From Gemmatimonadaceae bacterium (GTDB lineage: Bacteria > Gemmatimonadota > Gemmatimonadetes > Gemmatimonadales > Gemmatimonadaceae): a stretch of DNA of 64,000 bases. Position numbers and translations under genes: made by a program. The notes beneath the pieces were generated by a model, which was not told where the DNA came from, did not search any database, and was given only the letters and a program-made list of their open reading frames with translations. The DNA is taken from the NCBI GenBank assembly GCA_020851455.1, contig JADZCT010000047.1, positions 1 through 64,000 of the forward strand. Direction: 5' to 3'. Positions 801-30,971 of the stretch are shown here, piece by piece; the stretch's first letter is position 1; each line of letters starts with the position of its first letter.

Positions 801-834
801 GTGGCGCGGAAGCCGGGCAGCCCGGTGATCAGCG

Positions 835-1299
835 ATGCGTGTCATTGTCGTCGTAGTGGGGAAGGCGCGCCACCCGGCGCTCGGCGCAGCGGCGCGCGGA
901 TACGAAGAACGGGCGGCCCGCTACTGGCCGCTCGAGGTGCGCCACGTGCGCCAGGAAATGGGCGCGGACCAGCCGTCAGCGCGGGCGCTGGGGAGGGAAG
1001 GAATGCGCATCATCGAAGCGGCTGGCGCTCGGTCCACGATCGTTGCCTGCGATGCTACAGGGAAGCGGATGACGTCGGTCGAGTTTGCGCAATGGCTGCA
1101 GGGCGAGCGGGAGTCGGCGCGCGACATATGCTTTGCGATCGGCGGAGCGCACGGCCTCTCGCGCGATGTTCTTGGCGCGGCGCAGTTCAAGCTCAGTCTC
1201 GCGCCGTGGACGCTCGCGCACGAGCTGGCGCGGCTCGTGCTGGCCGAGCAGTTGTACCGGGCTGGCACGATCGTCCGGCGCGAGCCGTACAACAAGTGA
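835..1299 (+). CDS. rlmH: 23S rRNA (pseudouridine-1915-N3) methyltransferase RlmH
   Basis: SPOUT-class methyltransferase that methylates the N3 of pseudouridine 1915 in helix 69 of 23S rRNA on the assembled 70S ribosome. The 154-residue length matches the family (about 155). The family C-terminal signature is present: the knot with FAIGGAHGLS near residue 104, then LSLAPWTLAHELARLVLAEQ and a terminal EPYNK. The ATG at 835 gives the usual start MRVIVVVVGKA. It is followed by bshC after 7 nt. Confidence 0.95.
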   Translation: MRVIVVVVGKARHPALGAAARGYEERAARYWPLEVRHVRQEMGADQPSARALGREGMRIIEAAGARSTIVACDATGKRMTSVEFAQWLQGERESARDICFAIGGAHGLSRDVLGAAQFKLSLAPWTLAHELARLVLAEQLYRAGTIVRREPYNK

Positions 1300-1306
1300 C
1301 CTGCCG

Positions 1307-2863
1307 ATGAGCGAGCCCGACGTCGCGCGCGTGCGCGTCGAGTCGTTGGGCGGAGGCGCGCTCACGCGCGCCTTCCTCGACGGAGGAGCACCGCGCGAGT
1401 GGTTCGTGCCCCGCCCGCGGGGCGCCGAGGGATGGCGAAGCCACGCAGAAGCGGTACGCGCCGGGTTCCCAGGCGCGCGCTGGCTGGAGGGTCTCCGGCC
1501 AGCCCTCAATGCGAGCGGCGCCGCACGCGAGCGGCTGGAACGCGTGGCAGCCGGGCATGGCGTCGTCGTGACCACCGGACAGCAGCCGGGCCTCTTTGGC
1601 GGGCCAGGGTACACGTGGCTCAAGGCGTTCACGGCGATCGCGCTTGCCGACCGGATCGAACACGCAACGGGTATCCCGGCGATTGCGATCTTCTGGGCCG
1701 CAACGGACGATGCCGACTTCGCCGAGGCCAGCTTCACGGCCGTTGCGATCGGCGCTGAGTGCAGGCGCATCGAAATCCAGCGTGCCGGCGCCGACGGGCT
1801 TGTAATGGCCGAAATGCCCCTCGGGAACGCCGGTGCGGCACTTGATGCCTTCCTCGATGCGACGCGATCCGCGCCGCACAGGGATCTGGTGGATGCTGTT
1901 AGAGCCAGCTACACGCCCGACGCGACCGTTGGGAGCGCATTCGTCGGCCTGCTGCGGCACGTGCTCGAACCGTTGGGGATGCCGGTCCTGGACGCATGGC
2001 ACCCAGCGACCCGTGGCGCAGCGCGCCCAGCACTGGCGGATGCTCTCGGCCGTGCCGCGGTAATAGACGAAGCCGTCAGCATGCGGAGCGTTTCGATTGA
2101 ACGCGCTGGGTACCGCGCGATCGTCCAGCGAGTACCACGACTCTCGCTGGTTTTTCGCAGCACGGAAGGGGTCAAGGAGAGGGTTCCCATCGCGCACGCT
2201 GCGGACGCCGCGCGCCGGGGTGACCTGGTTCTCTCGCCTAACGTGCTCCTGCGCCCAGTAGTCGAGCGCAGGATCCTGCCGACGGTCGCGTACGTGGGCG
2301 GCCCCGGGGAGATCGCGTACTTTGCGCAGGTTGGCGCCGTCGCAGAGGCAATGGGAGCCCCGGCGCCGTTGGTCGTCCCCCGCTGGTCGGCAACGGTGGT
2401 GGAACCGTCCGTGGACCGCATGCTCGGCCGGCTTGGGATGACCATCGAGGACGTCCGCGTGCCACATCGCGCGGAGCGTCGAATCGGAGACCGGGCCATG
2501 GCGCCGGCCGTGCGAGATGCGATCGAGGCGCTGCGGACGGCGGTCGAATCCGGGGTTGGCGCGATTGGCGCGGCTGCGAGCGCGGCGGGACTCTCAACAC
2601 CGGAAGTAGTGGAGGGCGGGAGGCAGCAGCTTCGCCAGCGCGTGGACCGGCTCGAGCGACGATTGCGCGCCGCCGCCGCGAGATCCGAGAAGGACGCAGT
2701 GCGCGACCTGGCTGCGATACGGGCGTCCGTGCAACCGGAGGGTAAGCGCCAGGAACGCGGCCTCAACTTCATTCCGTTCTTTGCCCGGTACGGTGAGCCC
2801 CTGGTGGATCGCCTGCGCGACGGCGCGGCGATCCACGCTGCCGCGCTCATCGGCACAAGGTGA
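1307..2863 (+). CDS. bshC: Putative cysteine ligase BshC (bacillithiol biosynthesis)
   Basis: BshC is thought to add cysteine to glucosaminyl-malate, the last step of bacillithiol synthesis. The ATG at 1307 gives 518 residues, near the usual 530-540. An in-frame upstream extension to 1085 lies inside rlmH and is not used. Recognisable blocks are TTGQQPGLFGGPGYTWLKA near residue 88, FWAATDDADFAEA near 127, and a C-terminal QERGLNFIPFFARYG followed by a coiled-coil tail end. A coiled coil of about residues 435-475 precedes that block, as in the family. BshA and BshB are not in the window. The gene overlaps murJ by 4 nt (GTGA). Confidence 0.92.
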   Translation: MSEPDVARVRVESLGGGALTRAFLDGGAPREWFVPRPRGAEGWRSHAEAVRAGFPGARWLEGLRPALNASGAARERLERVAAGHGVVVTTGQQPGLFGGPGYTWLKAFTAIALADRIEHATGIPAIAIFWAATDDADFAEASFTAVAIGAECRRIEIQRAGADGLVMAEMPLGNAGAALDAFLDATRSAPHRDLVDAVRASYTPDATVGSAFVGLLRHVLEPLGMPVLDAWHPATRGAARPALADALGRAAVIDEAVSMRSVSIERAGYRAIVQRVPRLSLVFRSTEGVKERVPIAHAADAARRGDLVLSPNVLLRPVVERRILPTVAYVGGPGEIAYFAQVGAVAEAMGAPAPLVVPRWSATVVEPSVDRMLGRLGMTIEDVRVPHRAERRIGDRAMAPAVRDAIEALRTAVESGVGAIGAAASAAGLSTPEVVEGGRQQLRQRVDRLERRLRAAAARSEKDAVRDLAAIRASVQPEGKRQERGLNFIPFFARYGEPLVDRLRDGAAIHAAALIGTR

Positions 2864-4464
2864 CGGCCGCGAGGCGCGACAACTCCGCGCCGCGCGGCCG
2901 CGGGGGCGCGGTGGCGGCCGCATCGGGAATCCTCGCGAGCCGCGTCTTCGGGCTCGTGCGGCAGCGCGTGATGAGCCACTTCCTCGGGGTTGGCGACGCG
3001 GCCGACGTGATCAGCGCCGCATTGCGCATCCCGAATGTGTTGCAGAACCTCCTTGGCGAGGGAGTGCTGTCGGCGTCGTTCGTACCCGTGTACGCGCGGC
3101 TGCGCGCCGAGGGCAGGGAGGACGACGCAACCCGACTTGCACAAGTCGTTTTTGCAGGCCTCTCGGCGGCGTGCGGCGTCCTTGTAGGACTGGGCATTCT
3201 TGGAGCGCCATGGCTCGTCGCCACAATCGCAGGCGGGTTCGCGCCGGAGAAGCGCGCCTTCGCCGTATTTCTCGTGCGGATCCTCTTCCCGGGCGTTGGG
3301 CTGCTGGTGATGTCGGCATGGTGCCTCGGCGTACTGAACGCACACCGGAAGTTCCTGCTCGCTTACGCGTCGCCGATCGCATGGAACCTGGCCATCATCG
3401 GGGCGCTGCTTTGGCGAGGTCCGCGCACCGATCCGGACGGTGCCGCGACGCTGGTCGCCGCAGGCGCCGCGGCTGGCGGGCTGTTGCAGTTCGCCGTCCA
3501 GGTGCCGGGAGTGCTGCGGGCCGTGCCGGGCATCGTCCGGCGATCCAGCCTCGCGCCAGTCCCTGAGGTTCGCAGGGTGGTGCGCAACTTCGGCCCCGTG
3601 CTCCTCGGCAGGGGGGCCGTGCAGCTGAGCGGCTGGGTGGACTTGCTCATCGCTACCTACGTCGCGACCGCGGGGGCAGCCGCTGTCCTGATGTACGCGC
3701 AGACGATCGCGCTCCTTCCGGTATCGGTGTTCGGAATGTCCATCTCCGCGAGCGAGCTTACCGAGATGAGCCACCATGCCGAGAGCGACGTGGCCAACGC
3801 GATTCGCGCACGCCTCGGGTCGTCGTTGCGCGCCGTGGCGTACTTCGTGGTGCCGTCGTCGGCTGCGCTCCTCTTTCTTGGGGACGCGGCGGCTGGCGCC
3901 GTGCTCCAGACCGGGAGGTTCGCGCGCGCTGATACCGTGTGGGTCTGGGCAGTACTCGCGGGGTCGGCGATCGGATTGCTCGCCGGAACGATGGGCCGGC
4001 TCTACAACTCCGCGTGGTACGCCCTGCACGACACGCGAACGCCGGTCCGGATCGCGCTCATTCGTATTGCCATCACCGGGACGCTTGGCGCGGTGGCGGC
4101 GCTTGCGCTGCCGTCGTGGCTTGGGATCGAGGCGCGCTGGGGTGTTGCCGGCTTGACGGCCACGGCCGGTGTCGCCGCCTGGATCGAGTACGCACTCCTG
4201 AGGCGCGCGCTGAGCGCGAGGATCGGGCCTACGGGGTTGCCGCCACGTGCGTTGCTCCCGCTGTGGGCCGCCGCCGTCATAGCGGCTGCCGCTGGATTCG
4301 GCGTGAAGCTCGCAACGGGCGGCGCTGGCCCGCTGCTCAGTGGAGTTGCGGTGTTTCTCGTATTCGGGTTCGCTTATTGGGCGCTGACGCTGCTGCTTCG
4401 CGTGCCTGAGGCGCACGCGGTGTTGCGGCGCCTCGCCGGGCGTGTCTCCGGGACTGGAGTATGA
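2860..4464 (+). CDS. murJ: Lipid II flippase MurJ (MviN)
   Basis: Inner-membrane flippase of the MOP superfamily that moves lipid II across the membrane for peptidoglycan synthesis. The 534 residues hold about 14 hydrophobic segments. The N-terminal signature SGILASRVFGLVRQRVMS (about residues 21-38), the LGVGDAADVISAALRIPN loop and LLGEGVLSASFVPVYARL are typical of MurJ. The start is GTG 2860, overlapping the bshC stop by 4 nt. The first 15 residues are basic and lie in the cytoplasm. Confidence 0.95.
   Translation: MTAARRDNSAPRGRGGAVAAASGILASRVFGLVRQRVMSHFLGVGDAADVISAALRIPNVLQNLLGEGVLSASFVPVYARLRAEGREDDATRLAQVVFAGLSAACGVLVGLGILGAPWLVATIAGGFAPEKRAFAVFLVRILFPGVGLLVMSAWCLGVLNAHRKFLLAYASPIAWNLAIIGALLWRGPRTDPDGAATLVAAGAAAGGLLQFAVQVPGVLRAVPGIVRRSSLAPVPEVRRVVRNFGPVLLGRGAVQLSGWVDLLIATYVATAGAAAVLMYAQTIALLPVSVFGMSISASELTEMSHHAESDVANAIRARLGSSLRAVAYFVVPSSAALLFLGDAAAGAVLQTGRFARADTVWVWAVLAGSAIGLLAGTMGRLYNSAWYALHDTRTPVRIALIRIAITGTLGAVAALALPSWLGIEARWGVAGLTATAGVAAWIEYALLRRALSARIGPTGLPPRALLPLWAAAVIAAAAGFGVKLATGGAGPLLSGVAVFLVFGFAYWALTLLLRVPEAHAVLRRLAGRVSGTGV
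4456..4459 (+). promoter_or_regulatory. Shine-Dalgarno GGAG deciding the uvrC start
   Basis: GGAG sits 6 nt before the ATG at 4466, inside the end of murJ. It supports that ATG over the in-frame GTG at 4442, which would add 8 residues and has no such site. Confidence 0.6.
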
Positions 4465-4465
4465 C

Positions 4466-6361
4466 ATGACTCTGCCGGAGCATGTCGCGCACAGCACCTT
4501 GACGCTTCCCGAGTCGCCTGGGGTCTACTGCTGGAAGGCGGCCGATGGCACGGTCCTGTACGTTGGAAAAGCGAAGCGGCTCAAGGCGCGGGTGCGAAGT
4601 TACCTTGCCGGCGAGCAGTCATCGCCCAAGACCCGCGCATTGATGGCGCAGGCCACCGGGCTGGAGACTATCGTGGTGCCGGACGAGCCGAGCGCACTCG
4701 TGCTGGAGGCCAACCTCATCAAGGAGCACCGGCCGCGATTCAACATCCTATTGCGCGACGACAAGTCGTACCCGTTCGTGAAGGTGACAGTGCAGGATCC
4801 GTTTCCCCGGGTGCTCGTCACGAGGCGCCTGATCAACGACGGGGCGCGCTACTTTGGGCCGTACACGGACGTGGGCGCGATGCGCCGCGCGCTGGACATA
4901 GTTCGTCGCACGTTCACCGTGCGGTCGTGCAGCTACGACATGCCGCGCGAGATGCCCGAGCGAGCATGCCTCGACTACCACATTGGGCGTTGCAAGGCGC
5001 CATGCATAGGCGCGCAGTCGCAGGAAGAGTATGGAGAAATGATTGACGAGGTCGTTGCGTTTCTCTCCGGCCGTGCGACGGAAGTCGTAGCGCGTCTGCG
5101 GGCCAGGATGGACGATGCGGCCGCCCGGATGGACTACGAGCGGGCCGCCGAGATGCGCGACGCCATGCGGCACATCCAGCACATAGAAGAGCCGTCCGTG
5201 CTCGTTGATGCAGGCGGCGGTGACAGGGACGTCATCGGCTATGCCCGCGACGGCGATGACGCCTGCGTTGCAGTCCTGGTGATCCGGGACGGAAAACTGC
5301 TCGCCCGGGACCATCGCCTGCTGGAGCACGTCGAGGACTCGAGCGATGCCGACGTTCTCGGCGCGTTCATGGCGTCAGCGTACCTGCAACGGAAAGACCG
5401 CGCGCCCGATGTGTTCGTTCCGTTCGAGTTCACCGACCAGGAACTCGTCACGGCGGTCGCCGGCGGCCCGTCCGTCCGGATCCCGGTGCGCGGGCCCCGA
5501 CGCGAGCTCCTGGACGTGGCGGACCAGAACGCGCGGCACCTGCTTGAGGAGTTCCGCCTCGAGAGCATGGAGGCCGACGAGCGGGCGGCCGATCCCGTCT
5601 ATTCCCTGGGCCGTGATCTGGGCCTCCTGAAAATTCCGCGATCCATCGCCTGTTTCGACAACTCGACCTCGCAAGGGCGCGATAACGTTGGCGCCGTGGT
5701 GTGGTTCGAGAACGGGCGTCCGCGGCGGGCGGAATACCGGACGATGCGGATCAAGGCGCTCGCCGACGAACACGCGCCGGATGACTTCGCTTCGATGCGC
5801 GAGGTGGTCACGCGTTACTTCCGGCGCCGCCTCGACGAGAGCAAGCCGCTTCCCGACCTGGTCGTAATAGACGGGGGCAAGGGACAGTTGGCCGTCGCGG
5901 TAGAAGCGTTGCAGGCGCTCGGCCTTGGCGGACTGCCCGTGGCCGCGCTTGCGAAGCGCGAGGAGGAAGTTTTCCTCAAGGGCCGCAGCGAGCCGCTTCG
6001 GCTGTCGCGCCGCTCCGCGGCCCTCCGGTTACTGCAACGAATCAGGGACGAAGCGCACCGATCTGCCGTTGGCTACACCCGCACGCGACGGCGCATCAGA
6101 ACCGTGACGTCCGAACTGCTGCGGATTCCCGGTGTCGGGCAGGCGCGGCGGCGGGCCCTGCTCGTGAAGTTCGGCTCCCTGCAGGGGGTCCGCGAGGCGG
6201 CGGTCGGCGAGATCGCGTCCATGCCGGGCTTTTCCGCGCGCTCCGCCGAGCGAATCGTCGCCGCGCTTCGCGCTTCCGATCCCGCAGCAGCCGCCGCGCA
6301 GCCCGGCCCCGTGCAGCAACCACCGGTCACTTCAACGAACGACGAGAATGACGACCACTGA
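4466..6361 (+). CDS. uvrC: Excinuclease ABC subunit C
   Basis: Makes both incisions around bulky DNA lesions in nucleotide excision repair after UvrAB loading. The 631 residues show the full domain order: GIY-YIG nuclease (GVY at 19-21, YVG at 32-34), a cysteine-containing segment (CLDYHIGRCKAPC), the UVR motif (MDYERAAEMRDAM) near residue 220, the RNase H-like endonuclease domain with VVIDGGKGQL near 470, and paired helix-hairpin-helix motifs (RIPGVGQARRRAL, SMPGFSARSAERI). The ATG at 4466 has a good ribosome binding site and overlaps nothing; murJ stops 1 nt before it. The last 14 nt overlap the threonine synthase gene. Confidence 0.96.
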   Translation: MTLPEHVAHSTLTLPESPGVYCWKAADGTVLYVGKAKRLKARVRSYLAGEQSSPKTRALMAQATGLETIVVPDEPSALVLEANLIKEHRPRFNILLRDDKSYPFVKVTVQDPFPRVLVTRRLINDGARYFGPYTDVGAMRRALDIVRRTFTVRSCSYDMPREMPERACLDYHIGRCKAPCIGAQSQEEYGEMIDEVVAFLSGRATEVVARLRARMDDAAARMDYERAAEMRDAMRHIQHIEEPSVLVDAGGGDRDVIGYARDGDDACVAVLVIRDGKLLARDHRLLEHVEDSSDADVLGAFMASAYLQRKDRAPDVFVPFEFTDQELVTAVAGGPSVRIPVRGPRRELLDVADQNARHLLEEFRLESMEADERAADPVYSLGRDLGLLKIPRSIACFDNSTSQGRDNVGAVVWFENGRPRRAEYRTMRIKALADEHAPDDFASMREVVTRYFRRRLDESKPLPDLVVIDGGKGQLAVAVEALQALGLGGLPVAALAKREEEVFLKGRSEPLRLSRRSAALRLLQRIRDEAHRSAVGYTRTRRRIRTVTSELLRIPGVGQARRRALLVKFGSLQGVREAAVGEIASMPGFSARSAERIVAALRASDPAAAAAQPGPVQQPPVTSTNDENDDH

Positions 6362-7496
6362 ATGGACTCTTCACTGCTCGACCTGCGCTTACTCCACGGA
6401 GGGTGGCCGCCTGGCCTCGCTCTGTCCTGACTGCGGCCAGCCCTTGGTCGCACGCATGGCGCCTGCTTCGCGCGACGCGGTTACGACGGAGCCGACGATG
6501 TGGCGCTACTCGGCGGCGATGCCCATCCGCGACGGCGAAGCGCGTGTCTCGATAGGGGAGGGGATGACGCCGCTGACGGAGGCGCCTGAACTGGCCGCGG
6601 CAGCCGGCGTCGCGCGGCTCTGGGTGAAGGATGAAGGGATCAACCCCACGGCAAGCTTCAAGGCGCGCGGGCTCTGCATGGCAGTCACCCGCGCGAAGGC
6701 ACTGGGCCTCCCGGGAGTATGCGTTCCAACGGCTGGCAACGCTGGGATCGCACTGGCTGCGTATGCGGCTGCGGCAAGGATGCCGGCGCGCGTCTACGCG
6801 CCGCGCACCACTCCGCCGCCGATCCTCGGCTCGATTCGCGCGTATGGCGCGGAACTCCAACTCGTGGACGGGCATATCGGCGATGCCGGCAAGGCAACGA
6901 TGGCGTTCGCCACGGAGACCGGGTTCTTCAACGTGGCGACGCTCCGTGAGCCATACCGTGTCGAAGGCATGAAGACCATGGGGTACGAAATCGCCGAATC
7001 GTTCGGGTGGCGCAACCTTCCCGACGCGATCGTGTATCCGACGGGCGGCGGCGAGGGCACGATCGGCATCTGGAAGGCGTTCCAGGAGATGATCGAGTGG
7101 GGTTGGCTGGCGATGGATACGCCGCTGCCGCGGATGGTGGTTGCGCAGGCGGCAGGATGCGCGCCGCTGGTCCGCGCGTTCAAGGAGCGCGCCGACCACG
7201 CCACGCCATGGGTCAACCCGGAGACGCACGCCAGCGGTTTGCGCGTGCCGGCGCCGCTTGGCGACCGTCTGGTGCTGCGCGCGCTGAAGGAAAGCCGTGG
7301 TGCAGCGTTCGCGACCGATGAGTCCACGATTCGCGCGAATACGTTCCGCATCGCTTCGACGTGCGGCATTGACGCGGCCCCGGAGGGTGGCGCGGCGCTC
7401 GGCGTTGCCGACATGCTCGTCAGCGAGGGTGTGGTTGGCCGGGACGCGCGCGTAGTGATCTTCAACACGGGGTCGGGAGCGTCGTACCGCTGGTAG
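6348..7496 (+). CDS. thrC: Threonine synthase with N-terminal zinc-ribbon
   Basis: PLP enzyme that converts O-phosphohomoserine to threonine. The 382 residues match the shorter, plant/archaeal-like class. An N-terminal CxxC pair (CSTC about residue 11 and CPDC about 28) suggests a zinc-ribbon-like extension common in this class. The PLP lysine lies in NPTASFKARG near residue 101, the phosphate-type loop PTAGNAGIALAAYAA follows, and YPTGGGEGTIGIWKAF near residue 225 binds the cofactor phosphate. ATG 6348 lies inside the uvrC end. A less likely alternative is another fold-type II PLP lyase. Confidence 0.85.
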   Translation: MTTTEWTLHCSTCAYSTEGGRLASLCPDCGQPLVARMAPASRDAVTTEPTMWRYSAAMPIRDGEARVSIGEGMTPLTEAPELAAAAGVARLWVKDEGINPTASFKARGLCMAVTRAKALGLPGVCVPTAGNAGIALAAYAAAARMPARVYAPRTTPPPILGSIRAYGAELQLVDGHIGDAGKATMAFATETGFFNVATLREPYRVEGMKTMGYEIAESFGWRNLPDAIVYPTGGGEGTIGIWKAFQEMIEWGWLAMDTPLPRMVVAQAAGCAPLVRAFKERADHATPWVNPETHASGLRVPAPLGDRLVLRALKESRGAAFATDESTIRANTFRIASTCGIDAAPEGGAALGVADMLVSEGVVGRDARVVIFNTGSGASYRW

Positions 7497-7571
7497 GTGG
7501 ACGCGCCCCCGGGCGAGGGAATCCGCGCGCCTGACTCGGCGTGCGGCAGTCGCGCGGCTAACTTTCGCGCC

Positions 7572-8744
7572 ATGTCATTGACTGCCATTCTCGATCCAGC
7601 GTCCGGAATTGCCGGCGACATGATGCTCGGTGCACTTCTCGACCTTGGCGTCGAGAGGAAGTGGCTCGATCAGTTGCCAGGCGCGCTTGGGCTGGAAGGA
7701 GTGAACGTCCGCGCCGAGCGTGTGCAGCGAGCCGGCATCGCAGCGTGGAAGGTGGATTTCGACATTCCCCCGCAGCCGCACGGGCGCCACCTGAAGCACA
7801 TCAGGGCGATCGTAGATGCGTCTGCGGCGCCTGCCACCGTTCGCGAGCGCGCCAACCGGGCCTTCGAACTCATCACGGCGGCAGAGGCCGCGGTCCACGG
7901 CACGACCGTGGAGAAGGTGCACCTGCACGAAGTCGGATCGGTGGACGCGATACTCGATGTGGTCGGCAGCGTATGGGGACTCCACCTGCTTGGCGTCGAG
8001 TCGGTACGGTGCGGCACGATCGCGCTTGGCGATGGCTTCGTTGACGCCGCCCACGGACGCATGGCGGTGCCCGCTCCGGCCGTGGTGCGGCTCATCGAAG
8101 GATTCGACGTTACCGCCGGCCCGGCGGGGAGCGGCGAGCTGACCACGCCAACTGGCGCCGTTCTGATGCAGGCGCTCGCAACGCCAGGGCTCCCGCCGAC
8201 GTTTCGCCCGCTTCGGAGCGGTTTTGGCGCCGGCACGAAGGACTTCCCCGGTCGTGCCAATGTCCTGAGAGTCACGCTCGCGGAGGTCAACGACGTCAAT
8301 GCGAACTCAGAGGCGATCGTCGTGCTTGCGTGCGATGTGGATGACATGACCGGCGAGTACCTCGTATCGGCGGCGGAGACTCTCCGGGCGGCAGGCGCCT
8401 TGGACGTGATCCTCGCGCCCGTGGTGATGAAGAAGGGGCGGCCCGGCACGCGAGTCGAAGTGCTGTGTGCGCCCTCGGACGCGCCTCGCATCGAAGCGAC
8501 GCTCCTTGTGGCCACCTCGACGATCGGTGTGCGACGTTACGACGCCACTCGCACGGCGCTGCCACGCACCTGCCGGGAGACGACCGTCTTCGGGCGCGCC
8601 GTACGCGTGAAGGTCGTCACCCTTCCCGATGGTACGGTGCGAGGTAAGCCGGAGTTTGATGACGTCGAAGGTGCACGGCTGGCGACAGGTCGTCCGGCGG
8701 CCGGGATAATTGCGGAAGCGCTCAGAAATGTCGGGCTACTGTGA
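7572..8744 (+). CDS. larC: Nickel pincer cofactor biosynthesis protein LarC
   Basis: CTP-dependent nickel insertase that completes the nickel-pincer nucleotide cofactor of lactate racemase and relatives. The ATG at 7572 gives 390 residues starting MSLTAILDPASGIAGDMMLG, the family N-terminus. An upstream GTG at 7497 would add 25 unlike residues. The family block EKVHLHEVGSVDAI is near residue 115. The CTP-binding C-terminal half (DVDDMTGEY, KKGRPGTRVEV) is in the same frame, so no programmed frameshift is needed, unlike in some lactobacilli. LarB, LarE and the LarA client are absent from the window. Confidence 0.9.
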   Translation: MSLTAILDPASGIAGDMMLGALLDLGVERKWLDQLPGALGLEGVNVRAERVQRAGIAAWKVDFDIPPQPHGRHLKHIRAIVDASAAPATVRERANRAFELITAAEAAVHGTTVEKVHLHEVGSVDAILDVVGSVWGLHLLGVESVRCGTIALGDGFVDAAHGRMAVPAPAVVRLIEGFDVTAGPAGSGELTTPTGAVLMQALATPGLPPTFRPLRSGFGAGTKDFPGRANVLRVTLAEVNDVNANSEAIVVLACDVDDMTGEYLVSAAETLRAAGALDVILAPVVMKKGRPGTRVEVLCAPSDAPRIEATLLVATSTIGVRRYDATRTALPRTCRETTVFGRAVRVKVVTLPDGTVRGKPEFDDVEGARLATGRPAAGIIAEALRNVGLL

Positions 8745-8857
8745 TGCGCAAGTCGTTCCCGCAGATTGCGTTCCGCGCCGTCACCTGACAGTTTACCTGA
8801 TATGACTCGATCCCGGAATGCTCGTCGCACCCGACCGGCGGCCCTGCCGGGAAGGCC

Positions 8858-10168
8858 GTGAGCCGGCCCGTAGTTGCCATCATCGGCCGGCCGAACGTCG
8901 GGAAGTCGTCGCTCTTCAACCGGATCATCGGTTCGAACGCTGCAATCGTGAGCGACGAAGCGGGCACCACGCGCGACCGCCACTTCGCCGAAGCATCGTG
9001 GAACCGCCGTGATTTCTGGCTGGTGGACACGGGCGGGCTCGATCATGCTCCTGCGCAACCAATGGACGTCGAGATCCGCCGGCAGGTCGAGATGGCGATC
9101 GAGGAAGCCGACCTCCTGATGCTCGTCGTTGACGCCGCCGCCGGCCTCCAGCCGGGGGATGCCGCGATCGTCGCCTTGCTGCGCACAGCCGGGAAGCCGT
9201 GGGTGCTGGTGGCCAACAAGGTGGACGACCCGAAGGACGCGAGCCACTACGAGTTCTATGGACTCGGCGCTGGTGATCCGATCCCCGTCTCGGCGGCGAA
9301 CGGCAAGAACTCCGGGGATCTCCTCGACGAAGTGGTCCGGCGCCTGCCCGACGTTGACACCCCGCCCGAGGAAGGGGCGTTGCGCATTGCCGTGGTTGGG
9401 CGCCCGAACGTGGGCAAGTCTTCGCTCATCAATCGGCTCCTTGGGGAGGACCGACTCGTCGTTTCGTCGGAGGCCGGCACGACGCGCGACGCGATTGATA
9501 CGCCGATGATCTACCATGAGCGCCGGTTCATCTTCGTTGATACCGCGGGCCTGAGGCGGCAGTCCAAGGTGGAAGACGGGGTGGAGTTCTATTCCGCGCT
9601 GCGCACGCGCCGCGCGATCGAGCGTGCCGATATCTGCCTGCTCGTAATTGACGCGACCGAGGGGCTCCACAATCAGGATCTCAAGATCGCGGCTCTCGCG
9701 TGGGATGCGGGGCGGGCGCTGGTGGCGGTGGTGAACAAGTGGGACATCAAGGAGAAAGACGACAAGACGTCAGCGCACTTCGAGAAGGAGTGCGCCGAGA
9801 AGGCGCCATTTCTCAGATTCGTCCCTTTTGTCTTCACCAGCGCGCTTACGGGGCAGCGGGTCACGAAGCTGCTCGACATCGTGCTCGAAGTGGACGCCGA
9901 GCGGCACAAGCATGTCGCCACCCCCGCGATCAACGACGCGCTTGGCGATCTGATGGCGCGCAGGCAGCCGCCGCAGGCAGCAGGGCGTGAGGTAAAGCTC
10001 ATGTATGCAACGCAGGTCAATGCGGTGCCGCCATCCATCGCCGTATTCGGGAACCATCCGGAACTCGTTGCCGAGCACTATGTGCGTTATCTGCACAATG
10101 GGTTCCGTGAACGCTTCGGATTTCGCGGGAATCCGCTTCGCATTCTCATGAGGCGCAAGTCCGCGTGA
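8858..10168 (+). CDS. der: Ribosome biogenesis GTPase Der (EngA)
   Basis: Tandem-GTPase protein needed for 50S subunit maturation. The 436 residues hold two G domains, each with GRPNVGKSS (about residues 10-18 and 180-188), followed by a C-terminal KH-like domain that ends in FRGNPLRILMRRK, the typical tail. NKVD and NKWD supply the two base-specificity motifs. The start is GTG 8858 with a purine-rich run just upstream; the 113 nt before it hold no gene and no promoter I can defend. It overlaps plsY by 4 nt. Confidence 0.97.
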   Translation: MSRPVVAIIGRPNVGKSSLFNRIIGSNAAIVSDEAGTTRDRHFAEASWNRRDFWLVDTGGLDHAPAQPMDVEIRRQVEMAIEEADLLMLVVDAAAGLQPGDAAIVALLRTAGKPWVLVANKVDDPKDASHYEFYGLGAGDPIPVSAANGKNSGDLLDEVVRRLPDVDTPPEEGALRIAVVGRPNVGKSSLINRLLGEDRLVVSSEAGTTRDAIDTPMIYHERRFIFVDTAGLRRQSKVEDGVEFYSALRTRRAIERADICLLVIDATEGLHNQDLKIAALAWDAGRALVAVVNKWDIKEKDDKTSAHFEKECAEKAPFLRFVPFVFTSALTGQRVTKLLDIVLEVDAERHKHVATPAINDALGDLMARRQPPQAAGREVKLMYATQVNAVPPSIAVFGNHPELVAEHYVRYLHNGFRERFGFRGNPLRILMRRKSA

Positions 10169-10800
10169 ACGCTCAGGTAGCCGGCGGGCTCGCGCTGGCG
10201 GCATCGTACGCGGCGGGGTCGTTCCCGAGTGCGTATCTGGCCGGCCGCATCACGAAAGGAATTGACCTGCGGACGGTGGGGTCGGGCAACCTCGGGACGA
10301 CGAACGTCTACCGCGAACTTGGGGTTGGCCCGGCGCTCGCTGTGCTGGCGGTGGATGGAATGAAGGGCGCGCTGCCGGCGGCCCTCTTCCCGCCGATGAT
10401 TGGAGCGGGCGGGACGGCCGCCGCATGGTGGGCGCTCGCGTGCGGAGCCACGGCAATCGCAGGGCACGCGCGCTCGATGTTCCTTCTCTGGAAAGGCGGA
10501 GGAAAGGGCGTGGCCACCGCGGCGGGCGTGTTTCTTGCCGTGACGCCGTATGCCACGCTCGCGGCGATTGCGGCGTTCATCATCGTGGTCGCGGCGACGA
10601 GGTACGCCTCGCTCGGCTCGCTCGTGGGCGGCGTCGTGGTGCCGGTGGCGGAGTGGCTCCGCGCCGGCCCGACGCCAGCGTTCTTTGCAGGGATCGCCGT
10701 AGCGGCGTTCATTGCCTTCACCCACCGATCGAACATCCAGCGGCTCGTTGCCGGTACCGAACGCCGGATCGGACGCGCGGGGGGGAGAGCGGCGCCATGA
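10165..10800 (+). CDS. plsY: Acyl-phosphate:glycerol-3-phosphate acyltransferase PlsY
   Basis: Inner-membrane enzyme that acylates glycerol-3-phosphate from acyl-phosphate, the first step of phospholipid synthesis; its partner PlsX is encoded at 41216-42229. The 211 residues have about five membrane segments and the three family motifs: SFPSAYLAGRI with the following GSGNLGTTNVYR, then GHARSMFLLWKGGGKGVATAAG, and THRSNIQRL near the C-terminus. The GTG start overlaps the der stop. Confidence 0.95.
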   Translation: MNAQVAGGLALAASYAAGSFPSAYLAGRITKGIDLRTVGSGNLGTTNVYRELGVGPALAVLAVDGMKGALPAALFPPMIGAGGTAAAWWALACGATAIAGHARSMFLLWKGGGKGVATAAGVFLAVTPYATLAAIAAFIIVVAATRYASLGSLVGGVVVPVAEWLRAGPTPAFFAGIAVAAFIAFTHRSNIQRLVAGTERRIGRAGGRAAP

Positions 10801-11789
10801 AGTGCGCCGTGGTGGGGTCGGGTGCATGGGGAACGGCGCTTGCCTCGGTGCTTGCGGCGAACTCGCACGACGTCACCATGTGGGCGCACGAGCGCGACGT
10901 CGCCGATGCGATCAATACGCGGCACGAGAATCCACGGTTCCTTCCGGACGTTGCCCTTGCGGTGACGATCCGCGCCTCCGCCGACATAGCGAGCGCGCTG
11001 CGCGGCGCGGGTCTCGTCGTGCTGGCCGCGCCAAGTCACGTACTGCGCCGCGTAGCCCGCGCCGCCGCGGCTTTCGCCGAGGCCGGTGCCCCAGTGGTAG
11101 TTGCGACGAAGGGAATCGAGCATGAGACGTTTGCCCTCATGACCGACGTTGCCGGCGCGGAATTGCCGGGCAGGCCAGTGGTCGCGCTTTCCGGGCCAAG
11201 CTTCGCGGCCGAAGTCGCGATGCGGCTCCCTACGGCGATCGTGGCGGCGTCGCGCGACGCCGCGGCTGCAGCGCGAGTGCAGGCCCTGTTCAGTCTGCCG
11301 AGTTTCCGGGTCTACACGCACGACGACGTCACCGGGGTGGAACTCGGCGGCGCGCTGAAGAACGTAATGGCAGTGGCCACCGGCATTTCCGACGGCCTCG
11401 AGCTTGGGTACAACGCGCGCGCTGCCCTGATCACGCGCGGCCTCGCCGAGATCACGCGGCTCGGAGCGCGGCTTGGCGCGGCGCAGGCAACGTTTGCCGG
11501 ACTCGCCGGCATTGGCGATCTCGTGTTGACCTGCACCGGCGCGCTCTCACGGAACCGCGCGGTGGGGATAGAGGTTGGGCGTGGCCGCTCCCTCGATGAG
11601 GCGCTTGCCGGGCGTGAAACCGTCGCGGAGGGAGTCGCGACGACGCGGAGCGCGCACGCCCTTGCCGGGCGTGAGGGTGTCGAGATGCCCATCGTTGCGG
11701 CGGTGCATCGTGTGTTGTTCGAAGGCCAGAGCGCGCGGCACGCATTGGCAGCACTGATGACGAGGGAGTTGAGGGGGGAGGCGGACTGA
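10797..11789 (+). CDS. gpsA: NAD(P)+-dependent glycerol-3-phosphate dehydrogenase
   Basis: Reduces dihydroxyacetone phosphate to sn-glycerol-3-phosphate, the substrate of PlsY encoded just upstream. The 330 residues begin MKCAVVGSGAWGTALA with the GxGxWG nucleotide motif at 7-12. Further family blocks are ATKGIE, LSGPSFAAEVA, GALKNVMAVATGISDGL with the catalytic lysine, and NARAALITRGLAEI. The ATG overlaps the plsY stop by 4 nt, which rejects the longer in-frame reading from 10425. Confidence 0.97.
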   Translation: MKCAVVGSGAWGTALASVLAANSHDVTMWAHERDVADAINTRHENPRFLPDVALAVTIRASADIASALRGAGLVVLAAPSHVLRRVARAAAAFAEAGAPVVVATKGIEHETFALMTDVAGAELPGRPVVALSGPSFAAEVAMRLPTAIVAASRDAAAAARVQALFSLPSFRVYTHDDVTGVELGGALKNVMAVATGISDGLELGYNARAALITRGLAEITRLGARLGAAQATFAGLAGIGDLVLTCTGALSRNRAVGIEVGRGRSLDEALAGRETVAEGVATTRSAHALAGREGVEMPIVAAVHRVLFEGQSARHALAALMTRELRGEAD

Positions 11790-12163
11790 TGGTGGTGCGG
11801 ACGCAGGAACGGCCGGAGCCCGTTCAGGAGTTCTTCTCGATCGGCGACGTGTACCGGATGACTGGCCTAAAGCCATACGTGCTCCGTTACTGGGAATCGC
11901 AGTTCAAGTTCCTCAGCCCGGCCAAGAATCGCTCGGGCAATCGCGTGTATCAGCGGCGCGAAATCGAGATGATCCTCCTCGTCAAGCACTTGTTGTACGA
12001 CAAGAAGTACACGATCGAGGGTGCGCGTAGGAAGCTCGATGAAGATCGCCGCAGCGGCGAACTCAGGCACGTCGCGCGCAACGGGTTCGACCTGGAGGCG
12101 ATCAAGATGGTGGAGCGCGACCTGCGGGAGATCGCGGGGATCCTCAGGGGAGACGGCAAGTGA
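11789..12163 (+). CDS. MerR-family transcriptional regulator
   Basis: A small 124-residue regulator. Residues about 14-80 form a MerR winged helix (FFSIGDVYRMTGLKPYVLRY, NRSGNRVYQRREIEMIL), followed by a helix for dimerisation. It lacks the C-terminal cysteine cluster of metal sensors, so no ligand can be named. MerR-like proteins next to surE and pcm are common in several phyla, but their targets are not known to me. The ATG overlaps the gpsA stop by 1 nt and its own stop overlaps surE by 4 nt, so it is co-transcribed with these genes. Confidence 0.88.
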   Translation: MVVRTQERPEPVQEFFSIGDVYRMTGLKPYVLRYWESQFKFLSPAKNRSGNRVYQRREIEMILLVKHLLYDKKYTIEGARRKLDEDRRSGELRHVARNGFDLEAIKMVERDLREIAGILRGDGK

Positions 12164-12924
12164 CGCGATTCCTGTGCAGCAACGATGACGGCGTGCTGGC
12201 GGCCGGGCTCGCGTGCCTGCAGCAGGCCGCGGAGCCGTTGGGAGAGGTTTACGTCGTCGCGCCGGACCGGGAGCAGAGCGCGACCAGCCATTCGCTGACG
12301 TTGCACCATCCGCTGCGGCCGCGCCAGCTTGGGGTACGACGCTGGCAGGTTGACGGCACCCCAACCGACTGCGTGATGCTCGCGGTGGAAGCGCTGATGC
12401 CCCACCGGCCTGACTTTGTGCTGAGCGGTGTCAATCATGGCCCCAACATGGGTGAGGACGTGCTCTATTCCGGCACCGTTGCGGCGGCAATGGAAGGATT
12501 GGCGCTGGGCGTGCCTTCCATTGCCATCAGCTTCGCAGGACGGCAGGGGGCCGGCTCCGCGTCGGATTTCGACTCGCACGTTGAACCGCTCTCGGCCCTC
12601 CTCAGCCATCTGATCTCGCTGCCAAGCCTCCCGCGCGATACGCTGCTGAACGTAAACCTCCCGCCGATCCCGGCCGATCAGGTGCGTGGCGTCAAGCTCA
12701 CGCGGCTCGGCAGGCGGGTCTTCTCCGACTCCGTCGTCCAGAGGGAAGATCCGTGGGGGAAACCCATCTACTGGATAGGCGGCGGTTCCGTAACGTGGTC
12801 GGCGGGCGAGGGCACGGACGTCGAGGCAGTGAGGGCCGGGTACATCTCGGTTACTCCGCTCCACCTCGACATCACACACCATGCCAGGCTCGGGGACGCG
12901 GCGCATTGGTGGAAGACTCCGTAG
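12160..12924 (+). CDS. surE: 5'/3'-nucleotidase SurE
   Basis: Metal-dependent nucleoside monophosphatase linked to stationary-phase survival, commonly encoded next to pcm, as here. The 254 residues carry the SNDDG metal motif at residues 7-11, VAPDREQSATSHSLTLH near 38, GTPTDCV near 67, and SGVNHGPNMGEDVLYSGTV near 89-107. Cysteine replaces the usual aliphatic residue before SNDDG (LCSNDDG). The start is GTG 12160. Confidence 0.95.
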   Translation: MTRFLCSNDDGVLAAGLACLQQAAEPLGEVYVVAPDREQSATSHSLTLHHPLRPRQLGVRRWQVDGTPTDCVMLAVEALMPHRPDFVLSGVNHGPNMGEDVLYSGTVAAAMEGLALGVPSIAISFAGRQGAGSASDFDSHVEPLSALLSHLISLPSLPRDTLLNVNLPPIPADQVRGVKLTRLGRRVFSDSVVQREDPWGKPIYWIGGGSVTWSAGEGTDVEAVRAGYISVTPLHLDITHHARLGDAAHWWKTP

Positions 12925-13574
12925 CGCGTGCCGGGCTGCCCCTCGGCGGCGCCCGGCGCCGTCTAGCCGAGGAACTGCGGCGCAAGGGCATCAACGATTC
13001 CGCCGTGCTCGCGGCGATCGAGGCGACCCCCAGGCACTTCTTCGTGCCGTCGGGCGTGGCGCACCGTGCATACGAGGATTCACCCATACCCATTGGAAGC
13101 GGTCAGACGATCAGCCAACCATTCGTTCATGCGCGATCGCTGGAGCTCCTGCGGCTCTCCGAAAGTGATCGCGTGCTGGAGGTTGGCACCGGGTCCGGTT
13201 ACCAGACAGCGCTGCTCGCTCGGCTCGCGCGACATGTGTACAGCATAGAACGGGTGCCGGCGCTGCACGAGGGAGCTGCGGCCGCGCTTCGGTCGCTCGG
13301 CGTCGGCAACGTGACCTTGGAGTGCTCCGACGGTACTGCCGGGTGGCCCGAGCATGCGCCCTTCGACGCGATCGTCGTGAGCGCTGGCGCTCCGGACATC
13401 CCGGCGCCGCTTGTAGAGCAGATGGCGGCGGGCGGGCGCATGGTCGTTCCGGTTGGCGCGCGCGGGGAGCAGACGATCGCGTTGCTCGAGCGGACGGGGA
13501 ACCGGATTGTTCGGCGCGACTTCGATGCCGTGCGATTTGTGCCCCTGATCGGAGAGCACGGATGGGCGCAATGA
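12909..13574 (+). CDS. pcm: Protein-L-isoaspartate O-methyltransferase
   Basis: Methylates isoaspartyl residues in damaged proteins with S-adenosylmethionine, starting their repair. GTG 12909 gives 221 residues, the family length, and overlaps the surE end by 16 nt; a longer reading from 12753 is inside surE. Signatures: SPIPIGSGQTISQPF near residue 58, the SAM motif VLEVGTGSGYQTALL near 90, and FDAIVVSAGAPDIP near 152. Confidence 0.95.
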   Translation: MEDSVARAGLPLGGARRRLAEELRRKGINDSAVLAAIEATPRHFFVPSGVAHRAYEDSPIPIGSGQTISQPFVHARSLELLRLSESDRVLEVGTGSGYQTALLARLARHVYSIERVPALHEGAAAALRSLGVGNVTLECSDGTAGWPEHAPFDAIVVSAGAPDIPAPLVEQMAAGGRMVVPVGARGEQTIALLERTGNRIVRRDFDAVRFVPLIGEHGWAQ

Positions 13575-13855
13575 TGCCCGGACTGCTCAGGCAGACCTTT
13601 CGGGTGACCGGCCTAGTGCAGGGCGTTGGGTTCCGATGGTTCGTGCAGTCAACGGCGCAGCACCTGGGACTGACCGGTTGGGTGGCAAACGATTCGGACG
13701 GTGGCGTGTCGGGCGAAGTCGAGGGGCCTGCTGCCGCCATGGGCGCTTTTTTTCGCGCGATCGGGACCGGCCCCGCCCGGTCGCGCGTGGACATGGTTGA
13801 GGCCGGCGAACCAGCAAGCGCGGCGGGCGCAACCTCGTTTGCGATTCGCCGCTGA
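13571..13855 (+). CDS. acyP: Acylphosphatase
   Basis: Hydrolyses acyl-phosphates. The 94-residue protein has the full family pattern: VTGLVQGVGFRWFV near residue 12 with the phosphate-binding arginine, and GWVANDSDGGVSGEVEG with the catalytic asparagine near 39. Two start codons lie in tandem (13571 and 13574); the first overlaps the pcm stop in the ATGA style used throughout this region. Confidence 0.95.
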   Translation: MMPGLLRQTFRVTGLVQGVGFRWFVQSTAQHLGLTGWVANDSDGGVSGEVEGPAAAMGAFFRAIGTGPARSRVDMVEAGEPASAAGATSFAIRR

Positions 13856-13912
13856 TCGCGCCCTTCGGGCACTCACACCAGGACGCCCACGGCCGCTACG
13901 TTTAGTCTTCGC

Positions 13913-13986
<74 letters not shown>

Positions 13987-14060
13987 CCTTTCAGGCTGGC
14001 CGCTGGCCGGAATGCCCGCGGACACGCTATCTTTAATGGCTTACGGGAGAACACCAGTCC

Positions 14061-14729
14061 ATGGGCACGTCAGCATCACCGTCAGGCAAGAACAACGATC
14101 TCGCGATAGACCCGACCGCCTTCGTGGAATGGACGAAGGCGAACAGTCGCAGTCTGTTGATCGCAGGGGCCATAGTGGTGGTTGGCGGTGCGAGCGTCCT
14201 CTTCGCGCGCCAGTCTGCGGCGCTACGCAACGAGCGGGCTGAGGTCGCCTATGGTACGGCTCAGGGGGCGTTCTATTCCGGGAATCTTACGCAGGCCAAG
14301 ACGGACCTCGAGGCGCTGGTGGGACGTTATCCGTCCACCAGCGGCGGCACGCAGGGCGCGATGCTGCTCGCGCAGATCCTGTACAACGACGGAAAGCACG
14401 ACGAAGGGATCAAGCGACTCACGGCCATCCAGGGATCGGCGCCGCGCCAGTTTGCGTCGGCCCTGGAGGAGCTGATTGCGGCCGGCTATGCGGACAGTAA
14501 TCGGCCGGACCAGGCGGCGGACCACTATCTGAAGGCCGCCGACGCTTCTCCGTTTCCGGCGGAGCAGGATGGTTTCCGCGCGGACGCCGCCCGTATCCTC
14601 GAGGCGGCTGGCAAGGCGGATCAGGCGAAAGCAATTTGGACGAAACTCGCCGCCGCTCCGGGCTCGCCCAGCTCAGTCGAAGCGTCGCTCCGCTTGGGCG
14701 AACTAGCCGCGAAGGTAGCGACGCCGTAA
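14061..14729 (+). CDS. Membrane-anchored TPR-like protein (YfgM/TPR_21 type)
   Basis: 222 residues: a short N-terminal cytoplasmic segment, one membrane helix at about residues 31-49, then a helical domain whose repeats (for example AYGTAQGAFYSGNLTQAKTD and the segments near 100-115 and 140-160) look like tetratricopeptide repeats. The layout matches YfgM-type proteins, which in E. coli associate with the SecYEG translocon and periplasmic chaperones. That role is not shown here. It is the last + strand gene before the dif region. A purine-rich GGGAGA lies 10 nt before the ATG. Confidence 0.75.
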   Translation: MGTSASPSGKNNDLAIDPTAFVEWTKANSRSLLIAGAIVVVGGASVLFARQSAALRNERAEVAYGTAQGAFYSGNLTQAKTDLEALVGRYPSTSGGTQGAMLLAQILYNDGKHDEGIKRLTAIQGSAPRQFASALEELIAAGYADSNRPDQAADHYLKAADASPFPAEQDGFRADAARILEAAGKADQAKAIWTKLAAAPGSPSSVEASLRLGELAAKVATP

Positions 14730-14797: not shown

Positions 14798-14825
14798 AGT
14801 GCGTATAATATGTATTATGTCAAGT
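14798..14825. other. dif: Probable dif site (XerCD chromosome-dimer resolution)
   Basis: 28 bp with the exact 11-6-11 architecture of bacterial dif. The left (XerC) arm is AGTGCGTATAA (14798-14808), the centre TATGTA (14809-14814), the right (XerD) arm TTATGTCAAGT (14815-14825). Against the E. coli arms (GGTGCGCATAA and TTATGTTAAAT) each differs at two positions. The inner ATAA/TTAT dyad is intact. It lies in the only convergent gene junction of the window, where all + strand genes end and all - strand genes begin, as expected at the replication terminus. The arms are an AT-rich island in very GC-rich DNA. xerD is at 31785-32702. Confidence 0.88.
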
Positions 14826-14910
14826 TGTCGCGTGGAAAACTGTGGAGAACGCCATGCCCCACCCGCGTTGACCACTGCTGCGCGCCCGCTGAATCCTCAG
14901 GATTGCGTCC

Positions 14911-15774
14911 TCAGGCTCGCGGCCAGATGTCGGCCAGGACGCCTGTAAACGTGACCCGCCCCTCGCCCTGTAGACAGGGCGCCGGCGAAGGTGCCAGCGG
15001 GAGCGTGACGGTCAGGATGCGGCCGGAGGTAGTTCGGACGCTGATCGGCTGATCGGGTCGCGCCAGGCCCCATGCGGCAAGGAGCCCGGCGACTGCGACC
15101 GCGCCGGTGCCGCACGCGAGAGTCTCTCCTTCCACCCCCCGTTCGTAGGTGCGCATTCGCCATCCGCCGGGGAGCGCCGAGACGAAGTTGACGTTGGCGC
15201 CCTTCAAGAGACTCGGATGGGATCGCAATTCGCGGCCCCGGTGGACGACGTCAACCGACTCGGCGTCGTCCACCAGCACAACGAGGTGAGGCACGCCGGT
15301 GTCGGCGTAGCCGAGCCGCCGCTCGCCGGGCGCGAGCGGGATGGCCGCGTCGGGCCGCAATCCGGTAACGGGCGGCATGGCGATCTCCGGGTTGGCGCCT
15401 TCGATGCGCGCCACGATGGTTCCGGCATCCGTCGCAATGTCGAAAGGCCCGGGTCCCGCCAGTCCGAGGCGCCAGGCCAGCGACGCGCTGCACAGGGAGG
15501 CGTTGCCGCACATCTCCCCGCGGGTGCCGTCCCTGTTGTAGTACTGCATCGTGAACGCTGCGGACGGGTGGCGGTCCAGGATGACAACACCGTCCGCGCC
15601 CACCCCGTCGGTTCGCGAGCAGAGCGCGGCGATTGCTTCGGGAGCGTCAATTCCCGCCGGGAGGCCTTCACGGGCGTCAATGACTACGAAGTCGTTGCCC
15701 GATCCGGTCATCTTCCAGAACCGGACTCCGCCGAACCTGGCGTCCGCCGCGGGATCCCTCGCCCGTTCGATCAC
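14911..15774 (-). CDS. dapF: Diaminopimelate epimerase
   Basis: Converts LL- to meso-diaminopimelate for lysine and peptidoglycan. The 287 residues from GTG 15774 overlap the upstream GT2 stop by 4 nt (GTGA); an ATG at 15810 lies inside that gene. Blocks: FWKMTGSGNDFVVIDA near 19-34, the first catalytic cysteine C89 in GEMCGNASLC, GVPHLVV near 161, and the second C221 in ETLACGTGAVAVAG. The usual CGNG is CGNA here, a mild departure next to the active site. It is the terminal gene of the - strand envelope operon. Confidence 0.93.
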   Translation of the reverse strand: MIERARDPAADARFGGVRFWKMTGSGNDFVVIDAREGLPAGIDAPEAIAALCSRTDGVGADGVVILDRHPSAAFTMQYYNRDGTRGEMCGNASLCSASLAWRLGLAGPGPFDIATDAGTIVARIEGANPEIAMPPVTGLRPDAAIPLAPGERRLGYADTGVPHLVVLVDDAESVDVVHRGRELRSHPSLLKGANVNFVSALPGGWRMRTYERGVEGETLACGTGAVAVAGLLAAWGLARPDQPISVRTTSGRILTVTLPLAPSPAPCLQGEGRVTFTGVLADIWPRA

Positions 15775-16493
15775 AGGCGCCCCATCAGCGCCCACCAGCG
15801 AAGGCGCCATACCATGAAGACGGCTTCGCGCACGATGCCGCCGTGCATCTTGCTCGTCCCGTGCGTACGGTCCGTGAACACAATCGGGATCTCGACGCCA
15901 TGGAAGCCCTTCCGGAATGCCCGGAAGCTCATTTCGATCTGGAAGGCGTAGCCGTTCGAGCGAACGGCGTCGAGGTCAATCGCCTCGAGGACGCGGCGGT
16001 GAAAGCACTTGAAGCCGCCAGTCGCGTCCCAGAGCTTCATCCCGGTGACCCATCGCGCGTAGACGTTCGCGAAGTAACTGAGCATGAGGCGCGACATGGG
16101 CCAGTCCACCACCGTGACGTTACCGTCAAGGTAGCGGGAGCCAAGGACGAAGTCCGCGCGCTGAGCCGCCTCGATGAACTTGGGGATCTGCGCTGGGTCG
16201 TGGGAGAAATCGGCATCCATTTCCATGATCAGCGCATAGTCGCGCTGCAGCGCCCAGCGGAACCCGTCGCGATACGCAGTTCCAAGCCCCATCTTGCCGG
16301 GCCGCCTCAGGAGGTGGATGCGCGAATCCACGCGTCCCATCTCCGCGGCGATATCGCCGGTGCCGTCGGGTGAGTTGTCATCCACGATCAATACATGGAC
16401 GCGCTGGTCGGCGGCGAGAGCGGCGGCGACGATGCTGCGGGCGTTTTCCTTTTCGTTGTACGTCGGGATGACAACGAGGACGGCATCGCTCAT
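15771..16493 (-). CDS. GT2 glycosyltransferase, polyprenyl-phosphate mannose synthase (Dpm1)-like
   Basis: 240 residues, a soluble GT-A enzyme without membrane segments. It shows VVIPTYNEKEN near residue 8, LIVDDNSPDGTGDIA near 35, the metal motif MDADFSHDP near 90, GSRYLDG near 117, and a C-terminal DRTHGTSKM block. This is the pattern of dolichyl/polyprenyl-phosphate hexose synthases, which load a sugar from a nucleotide donor onto a lipid phosphate. The ATG overlaps the YfhO-like stop by 4 nt. The YfhO-like integral membrane protein next door is a candidate user of the lipid-linked sugar. Donor sugar unknown. Confidence 0.85.
   Translation of the reverse strand: MSDAVLVVIPTYNEKENARSIVAAALAADQRVHVLIVDDNSPDGTGDIAAEMGRVDSRIHLLRRPGKMGLGTAYRDGFRWALQRDYALIMEMDADFSHDPAQIPKFIEAAQRADFVLGSRYLDGNVTVVDWPMSRLMLSYFANVYARWVTGMKLWDATGGFKCFHRRVLEAIDLDAVRSNGYAFQIEMSFRAFRKGFHGVEIPIVFTDRTHGTSKMHGGIVREAVFMVWRLRWWALMGRL

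Positions 16494-28501: not shown

Positions 28502-30971
<2,470 letters not shown>

Follow-up and report, generated by a model that had tools for sequence, protein, structure and literature searches.

We find that the dif site of this Gemmatimonadaceae bacterium is accompanied, on its XerD side and at an almost fixed distance, by a second short conserved sequence (hereafter the box; consensus TGTGGANAA, with N free), and that this arrangement recurs in the same register in relatives across the Gemmatimonadota. We consider it likely that the 28-mer is dif, that dif and the box make up a two-part site and that a protein would be bound next to XerD. The two-part site is the unexpected part of these results; dif and the terminus are as they had been described in a sequence-only reading of the window, that is, of the whole 64,000-nucleotide stretch analyzed here.

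The dif site occupies positions 14798–14825 of the plus strand and consists of an 11-bp XerC arm (AGTGCGTATAA, 14798–14808), a 6-bp centre (TATGTA, 14809–14814) and an 11-bp XerD arm (TTATGTCAAGT, 14815–14825). As the sequence-only reading had it, the 28-mer differs from Escherichia coli dif at two positions in each arm (18/22 arm identities), a match with a chance expectation of ∼0.009 in a genome of the same size and composition; the runner-up place in the 267-kb contig scores 14 of the 22 arm positions. The 28-mer is present once in the 2.96-Mb draft (97% complete) when up to three mismatches are allowed, in agreement with the single copy expected of a true dif. A strict dif pattern matches 32 of 61 genomes (relatives plus our own); with a looser one, 188 of the 298 phylum genomes give a match, and the reversed-pattern control has one match in total. 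In relatives dif is kept while its flanks are randomized; the suggestion that conservation would be confined to the arms holds in part, the central hexamer being likewise conserved inside the genus. The 28-mer is very probably a classical XerCD dif, and its identity as the chromosomal dif site is strongly supported; that it is active in recombination we infer. The site thus belongs to a known kind: a unique dif had been predicted by Kono et al. (2011; PMC3025954) for the sole Gemmatimonadetes member then sequenced. Six relatives carry two dif copies (G011, G038, G195, G197, G201, and G297), and at least one of the two is found ∼700 bp or less from a contig end, as though the assembly breaks at dif; one possible explanation is an element that has inserted there in some members of the population.

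The site lies at the sole strand switch of the window, with 15 genes, all on the plus strand, spanning 9–14729 and 47 genes, all on the minus strand, spanning 14911–63866, as found by a codon-usage gene caller. No gene in the window runs against this trend, and the minus-strand bias persists over most of the contig's other 200 kb; only 14.8 kb of the window lies to the left of dif, making the plus-strand arm short. Cumulative GC skew over the whole 267-kb contig, which is one of 139 contigs in a draft genome and thus not a genome-wide curve, has its maximum at 15583, 785 bp from dif. In about ten relatives (pieces of up to 20 kb) a local maximum falls 200 bp or less from dif, and over 80–140 kb the peaks of G071, G080, G105, G043, and G014 likewise fall no more than 200 bp away; among the relatives examined, no skew peak at dif was found in G220 and G030. 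The distance between dif and dnaA is 42–48% of the circumference in four of five closed relatives (G071, 41.6%; G080, 45.0%; G105, 47.8%; G033, 48.1%), the fifth (G220, 26%) being rearranged. The complete genome G033 (chromosome C2, L069–L138) has a weak genome-wide skew with no clear global V when sampled every 88.5 kb, a sampling that neither helps nor refutes the terminus reading, and a local skew hump around dif within roughly 60 kb, with a broad peak offset by 13 kb. The location of the 28-mer at the replication terminus, which had been claimed from the strand switch, is supported by these results.

XerC, XerD, and an FtsK-gamma domain are all encoded in the genome. The recombinase gene in the window, xerD (31785–32663, minus strand, 292 aa), is transcribed towards dif, and its product scores above the XerD equivalog cut-off (TIGR02225, 355.3 against 329.6 bits) and not above that of XerC, matches E. 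coli XerD (1a0p) with an E-value of 4.6e-69 and has R, K, H-x-x-R, H, and Y aligned to the E. coli XerD catalytic residues. The gene and its complete set of catalytic residues had been recognized from the sequence; the start is better placed at 32663, giving a slightly shorter open reading frame than the 31785–32702 originally given. A second recombinase, on contig C45, is above the XerC equivalog cut-off (344 vs. 335 bits) and not above that of XerD, and the FtsK-gamma domain, with the helix VGYGRAARIIDQL, is encoded at the opposite end of the dif contig. The E. coli KOPS word GGGNAGGG was counted over 1.2 Mb surrounding dif in nine genomes: 195 occurrences face the site and 31 face the other way, which ranks first in polarity among the 56 permutations of its composition (six G, one A, one N; median polarity ratio 2.35). 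Most genes also point to dif, so part of the GGGNAGGG polarity is coding bias. The genome also has three tandem tyrosine recombinase genes on a short contig (C80:5580–7961, L005–L007), resembling a recombinase-in-trio element, and an integron integrase (C49:4922–5473, L004; TIGR02249, 392 bits against a cut-off of 265).

The box of the window lies at 14841–14849 as TGTGGAGAA on the plus strand (TTCTCCACA on the minus strand), starting on the XerD side at +16 relative to dif, and a weaker copy, CGTGGAAAAC, occupies 14831–14840, one 10-bp period before it. When the flanks are aligned across relatives, nothing is conserved on the left and a sharp peak appears on the right, which the earlier reading of the window had missed. 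Of 59 loci gathered by dif alone, 48 have TGTGG starting at +16 and 7 have it at +17 (55 in total), the remaining four being L027, L030, L032, and L142. The best fixed-register words in the scanned flanks are the box word and its overlaps, and no fixed-register word of this kind was found on the left flank of the 59 loci. The second copy, ten bases earlier, has at least five of six key bases in 14 of 55 loci.

The conservation of the box approaches that of dif. Within the genus, where every box compared is at +16, the box reaches a pairwise identity of 0.89, compared with 0.92 for the dif arms, 0.35 for the 15-bp spacer, and 0.27 for either outer flank; with the outer flanks at random level, shared ancestry alone is insufficient to explain the conservation of the box. 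Furthermore, the distance from dif to the stop codon of dapF ranges from 3 to 364 bp (sd 76) while that from dif to the box is constant at 16 or 17, indicating that the box is anchored to dif; at L021 it lies inside the coding end of the neighboring gene. Selection on the box is coupled to its distance from dif. A third Xer arm was considered for this element and set aside on account of the unconserved A preceding TGTGG.

A scan of GTDB genomes with ATAAN6TTATGTNAA-N{8,38}-TGTGGANAA, in which the gap is free over 31 values, returned at least 117 matching stretches. Among the matches listed, 59 are from Gemmatimonadota, with a gap of 17 in 39, 18 in 19, and 8 in one, so that 58 of 59 have the dif-box register out of 31 possible gaps; in this phylum the box is one-sided, on the XerD side. 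Peregrinibacteriota contribute 15 of the matches listed, every one with a gap of 10–13, and the box is found on both sides of dif in L231 and L260 of this phylum and in the unclassified L225. A conserved TGTCAATTGA just outside the XerC arm, in addition to the XerD-side TGTGGANAA, was observed in Peregrinibacteriota L217, L219, L228, L231, L240, L241, L260, L262, and others. Three of the matches listed are from Omnitrophota, with a common gap of 23 and a perfect TGTGGATAA; their flanks are alike, so the three may be one event. Another three are from a single isolate of Fibrobacterota, and the remaining matches listed have scattered gaps and are mostly not dif-like. No word of the TGTGGANAA type was found near E. 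coli dif, and the box is thus unnecessary for Xer recombination in general. The site of the window otherwise resembles the E. coli system in its length, 11-6-11 layout, arms, terminus position, accompanying XerC, XerD, and FtsK-gamma, and GGGNAGGG polarity, but differs in its central hexamer and in having the box.

We propose that chromosome dimers would be resolved at the terminus by XerC and XerD acting on dif once FtsK triggers them at the division septum, and that the working site in this phylum would be dif together with a TGTGGANAA box 15–16 bp past the XerD arm. The box is most likely bound by a sequence-specific protein, which would sit beside XerD, the recombinase that FtsK activates, and would help, gate or time that activation. 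A core Xer site with a neighboring protein site at fixed spacing is also the arrangement of plasmid cer and psi; for the Gemmatimonadota box it is the spacing and the selection that are seen, and the site differs from cer and psi in being chromosomal, in its 6-bp centre and in having a short XerD-side box of another sequence.

Which protein might read the box is the point on which readings diverge. The box fits the DnaA-box shape TTNTCCACA with a relaxed third base, which makes DnaA or a DnaA-box-binding relative the first candidate. The box of the window, TTCTCCACA, agrees with the canonical DnaA box TTATNCACA at eight of nine positions, and those of relatives include, among others, TTGTCCACA and TTATCCACA, which we take to be DnaA boxes elsewhere. 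The tandem copies in some genomes are a further likeness to DnaA boxes; the differences are the location at the terminus beside dif instead of at oriC, the free position where the canonical box has A, and a binder that is putative. On this resemblance DnaA is the leading candidate ligand, held tentatively, and another accessory protein is at least as likely. The fuller version, in which Gemmatimonadota, and independently Peregrinibacteriota and others, have an extended dif where DnaA or another DnaA-box reader next to XerD would link dimer resolution to replication state, is a possibility well short of an even chance. A phylum-specific protein other than DnaA, shaping the XerCD synapse as ArgR and PepA do at cer or acting as a terminus organizer, is a reading that we hold at somewhat below even; it accommodates the fixed spacing, the one-sidedness, the occasional tandem copies with a 10-bp period and the free position at the A of the DnaA box. 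No candidate for such a protein was identified, however, and the same core beside dif in Peregrinibacteriota and Omnitrophota, perfect in the latter, suits a widely conserved binder instead. Most Gemmatimonadota genomes covered by the dnaA search contain a second gene with two DnaA-type AAA+ domains (e.g., G071:C1:1693232–1694875, G080:C1:1881574–1883172, G105:C1:1683374–1685155), the product of which is a possible reader of DnaA-box-like sequences.

Readings that place the box outside the recombination site fare worse. If dif were ordinary and the box served the convergent genes as a terminator of transcription or a signal for their 3′ ends, its position inside the convergent gap would be explained, as would the inverted partner that it has in a few relatives (L034, L066). 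Such a signal would be expected to follow the gene end, but this moves by hundreds of bases while the box stays with dif, and at L021 the box is itself coding; a stem of at least seven is found in just two of 55 loci, and a search of the window for terminators and RNA structure found neither a terminator nor structure above chance. We therefore regard a terminator as distinctly unlikely. The relatives with a second dif near a contig end also raise the thought that the site is the remnant or target of an integrative element using XerCD (IMEX) and that the box belongs to the element. Against this, dif is single-copy in our genome, the core genes flanking it are collinear across genera and families, and the box is present at loci with one dif, making this explanation highly improbable.

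The distance of 17 kb between xerD and dif had been noted as an unusual nearness of recombinase and site; the distance stands and is unusual in comparison with other XerCD bacteria, but in its own lineage it is the rule. Where both are on the same contig, 17 of 18 relatives at the order level have xerD at a distance of 17–29 kb, on the side of the XerD arm and reading towards dif (in G220 it is 55 kb away on the opposite side); in other orders of the class the distance is 20–46 kb in 20 of 23 cases (exceptions G101, G107, and G153). In E. coli, xerD is not known to lie near dif. The gene usually found near dif is xerC, not xerD, according to Kono et al. (PMC3025954).

From −15 to +50 kb of dif, the gene order of the window is for the most part shared with eight relatives belonging to two families, and with G033 the collinearity of the contig extends to ∼250 kb. 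The convergent block is anchored on the left by der (8858–10168, plus strand; TIGR03594, 530.7 bits), which is upstream of dif and co-oriented across the order and in nine of ten class-level genomes with both on one contig, and on the right by pyrG (28502–30184, minus strand; TIGR00337, 816.9 bits), which 23 of 25 class-level genomes, including three without xerD nearby, have ∼13–25 kb downstream of dif. Its core genes are bshC, murJ, uvrC, thrC, larC, der, plsY, and pcm to the left of dif and rpoN, lptB, kdsA, pyrG, kdsB, trpG, xerD, mqnC, mqnE, the fab cluster, plsX, sucC, and nuoD to the right. The last plus-strand gene before the switch (14061–14729) is unnamed by NCBIfam and tetratricopeptide-like by eye; the first minus-strand gene after it (14911–15810) is dapF-like, as named from its translation. 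The dapF gene adjoins dif in all 63 order-level loci checked, and no dapF match near dif was found in the other orders of the class. A gene for LarC (nickel pincer cofactor) is at 7497–8744, inside the block; the equivalent location in G071, G080, and G021 gave no match to it. Terminus-specific synteny was dropped as a claim, as a control on gene adjacency found the contig equally collinear at 64–267 kb (50/51 against 55/55).

The nearness of xerD is part of this long conserved gene block and not a recombinase-site module. Linkage of a recombinase gene to its own site is known from xerS/difSL and xerH/difH (PMC2731167, PMC5357621), and a dedicated xerD–dif pair kept together by selection would account for the two lying ∼17–46 kb apart on the same side in nearly all of the same-contig cases. 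We give this reading little credence and reject it as the main one, however, given that all the genes between and beyond are collinear too, to ∼250 kb in G033, and that xerD has left while pyrG stayed near dif in G101, G191, and G302. The xerS/difSL and xerH/difH systems have one recombinase, other sites and close linkage; here XerC and XerD equivalogs are both present, dif is classical and the linkage falls within a long syntenic block.

The accepted partners of chromosomal dif are XerC, XerD, and FtsK. A survey of Proteobacteria argued that the 6-bp centre of dif suggests that accessory elements are not needed (PMC2731167). A box with roughly the conservation of the dif arms, set at a fixed spacing and on the XerD side only, suggests that something else reads the site in this phylum. 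In a literature search with partial journal coverage we found no DnaA box or other fixed element next to a chromosomal dif and nothing on the Gemmatimonadota terminus, and the accessible text of Kono et al. (PMC3025954), which has the unique dif in common with our results, does not mention flanks, box or gene block; the box beside dif in Gemmatimonadota is apparently undescribed so far. Expression and conservation are usually pictured as higher near the origin (PMC7324424, PMC7851589), and a convergent array of core genes conserved class-wide at the terminus departs from this picture. If DnaA does bind the box, the replication initiator would act when the cycle ends as well.
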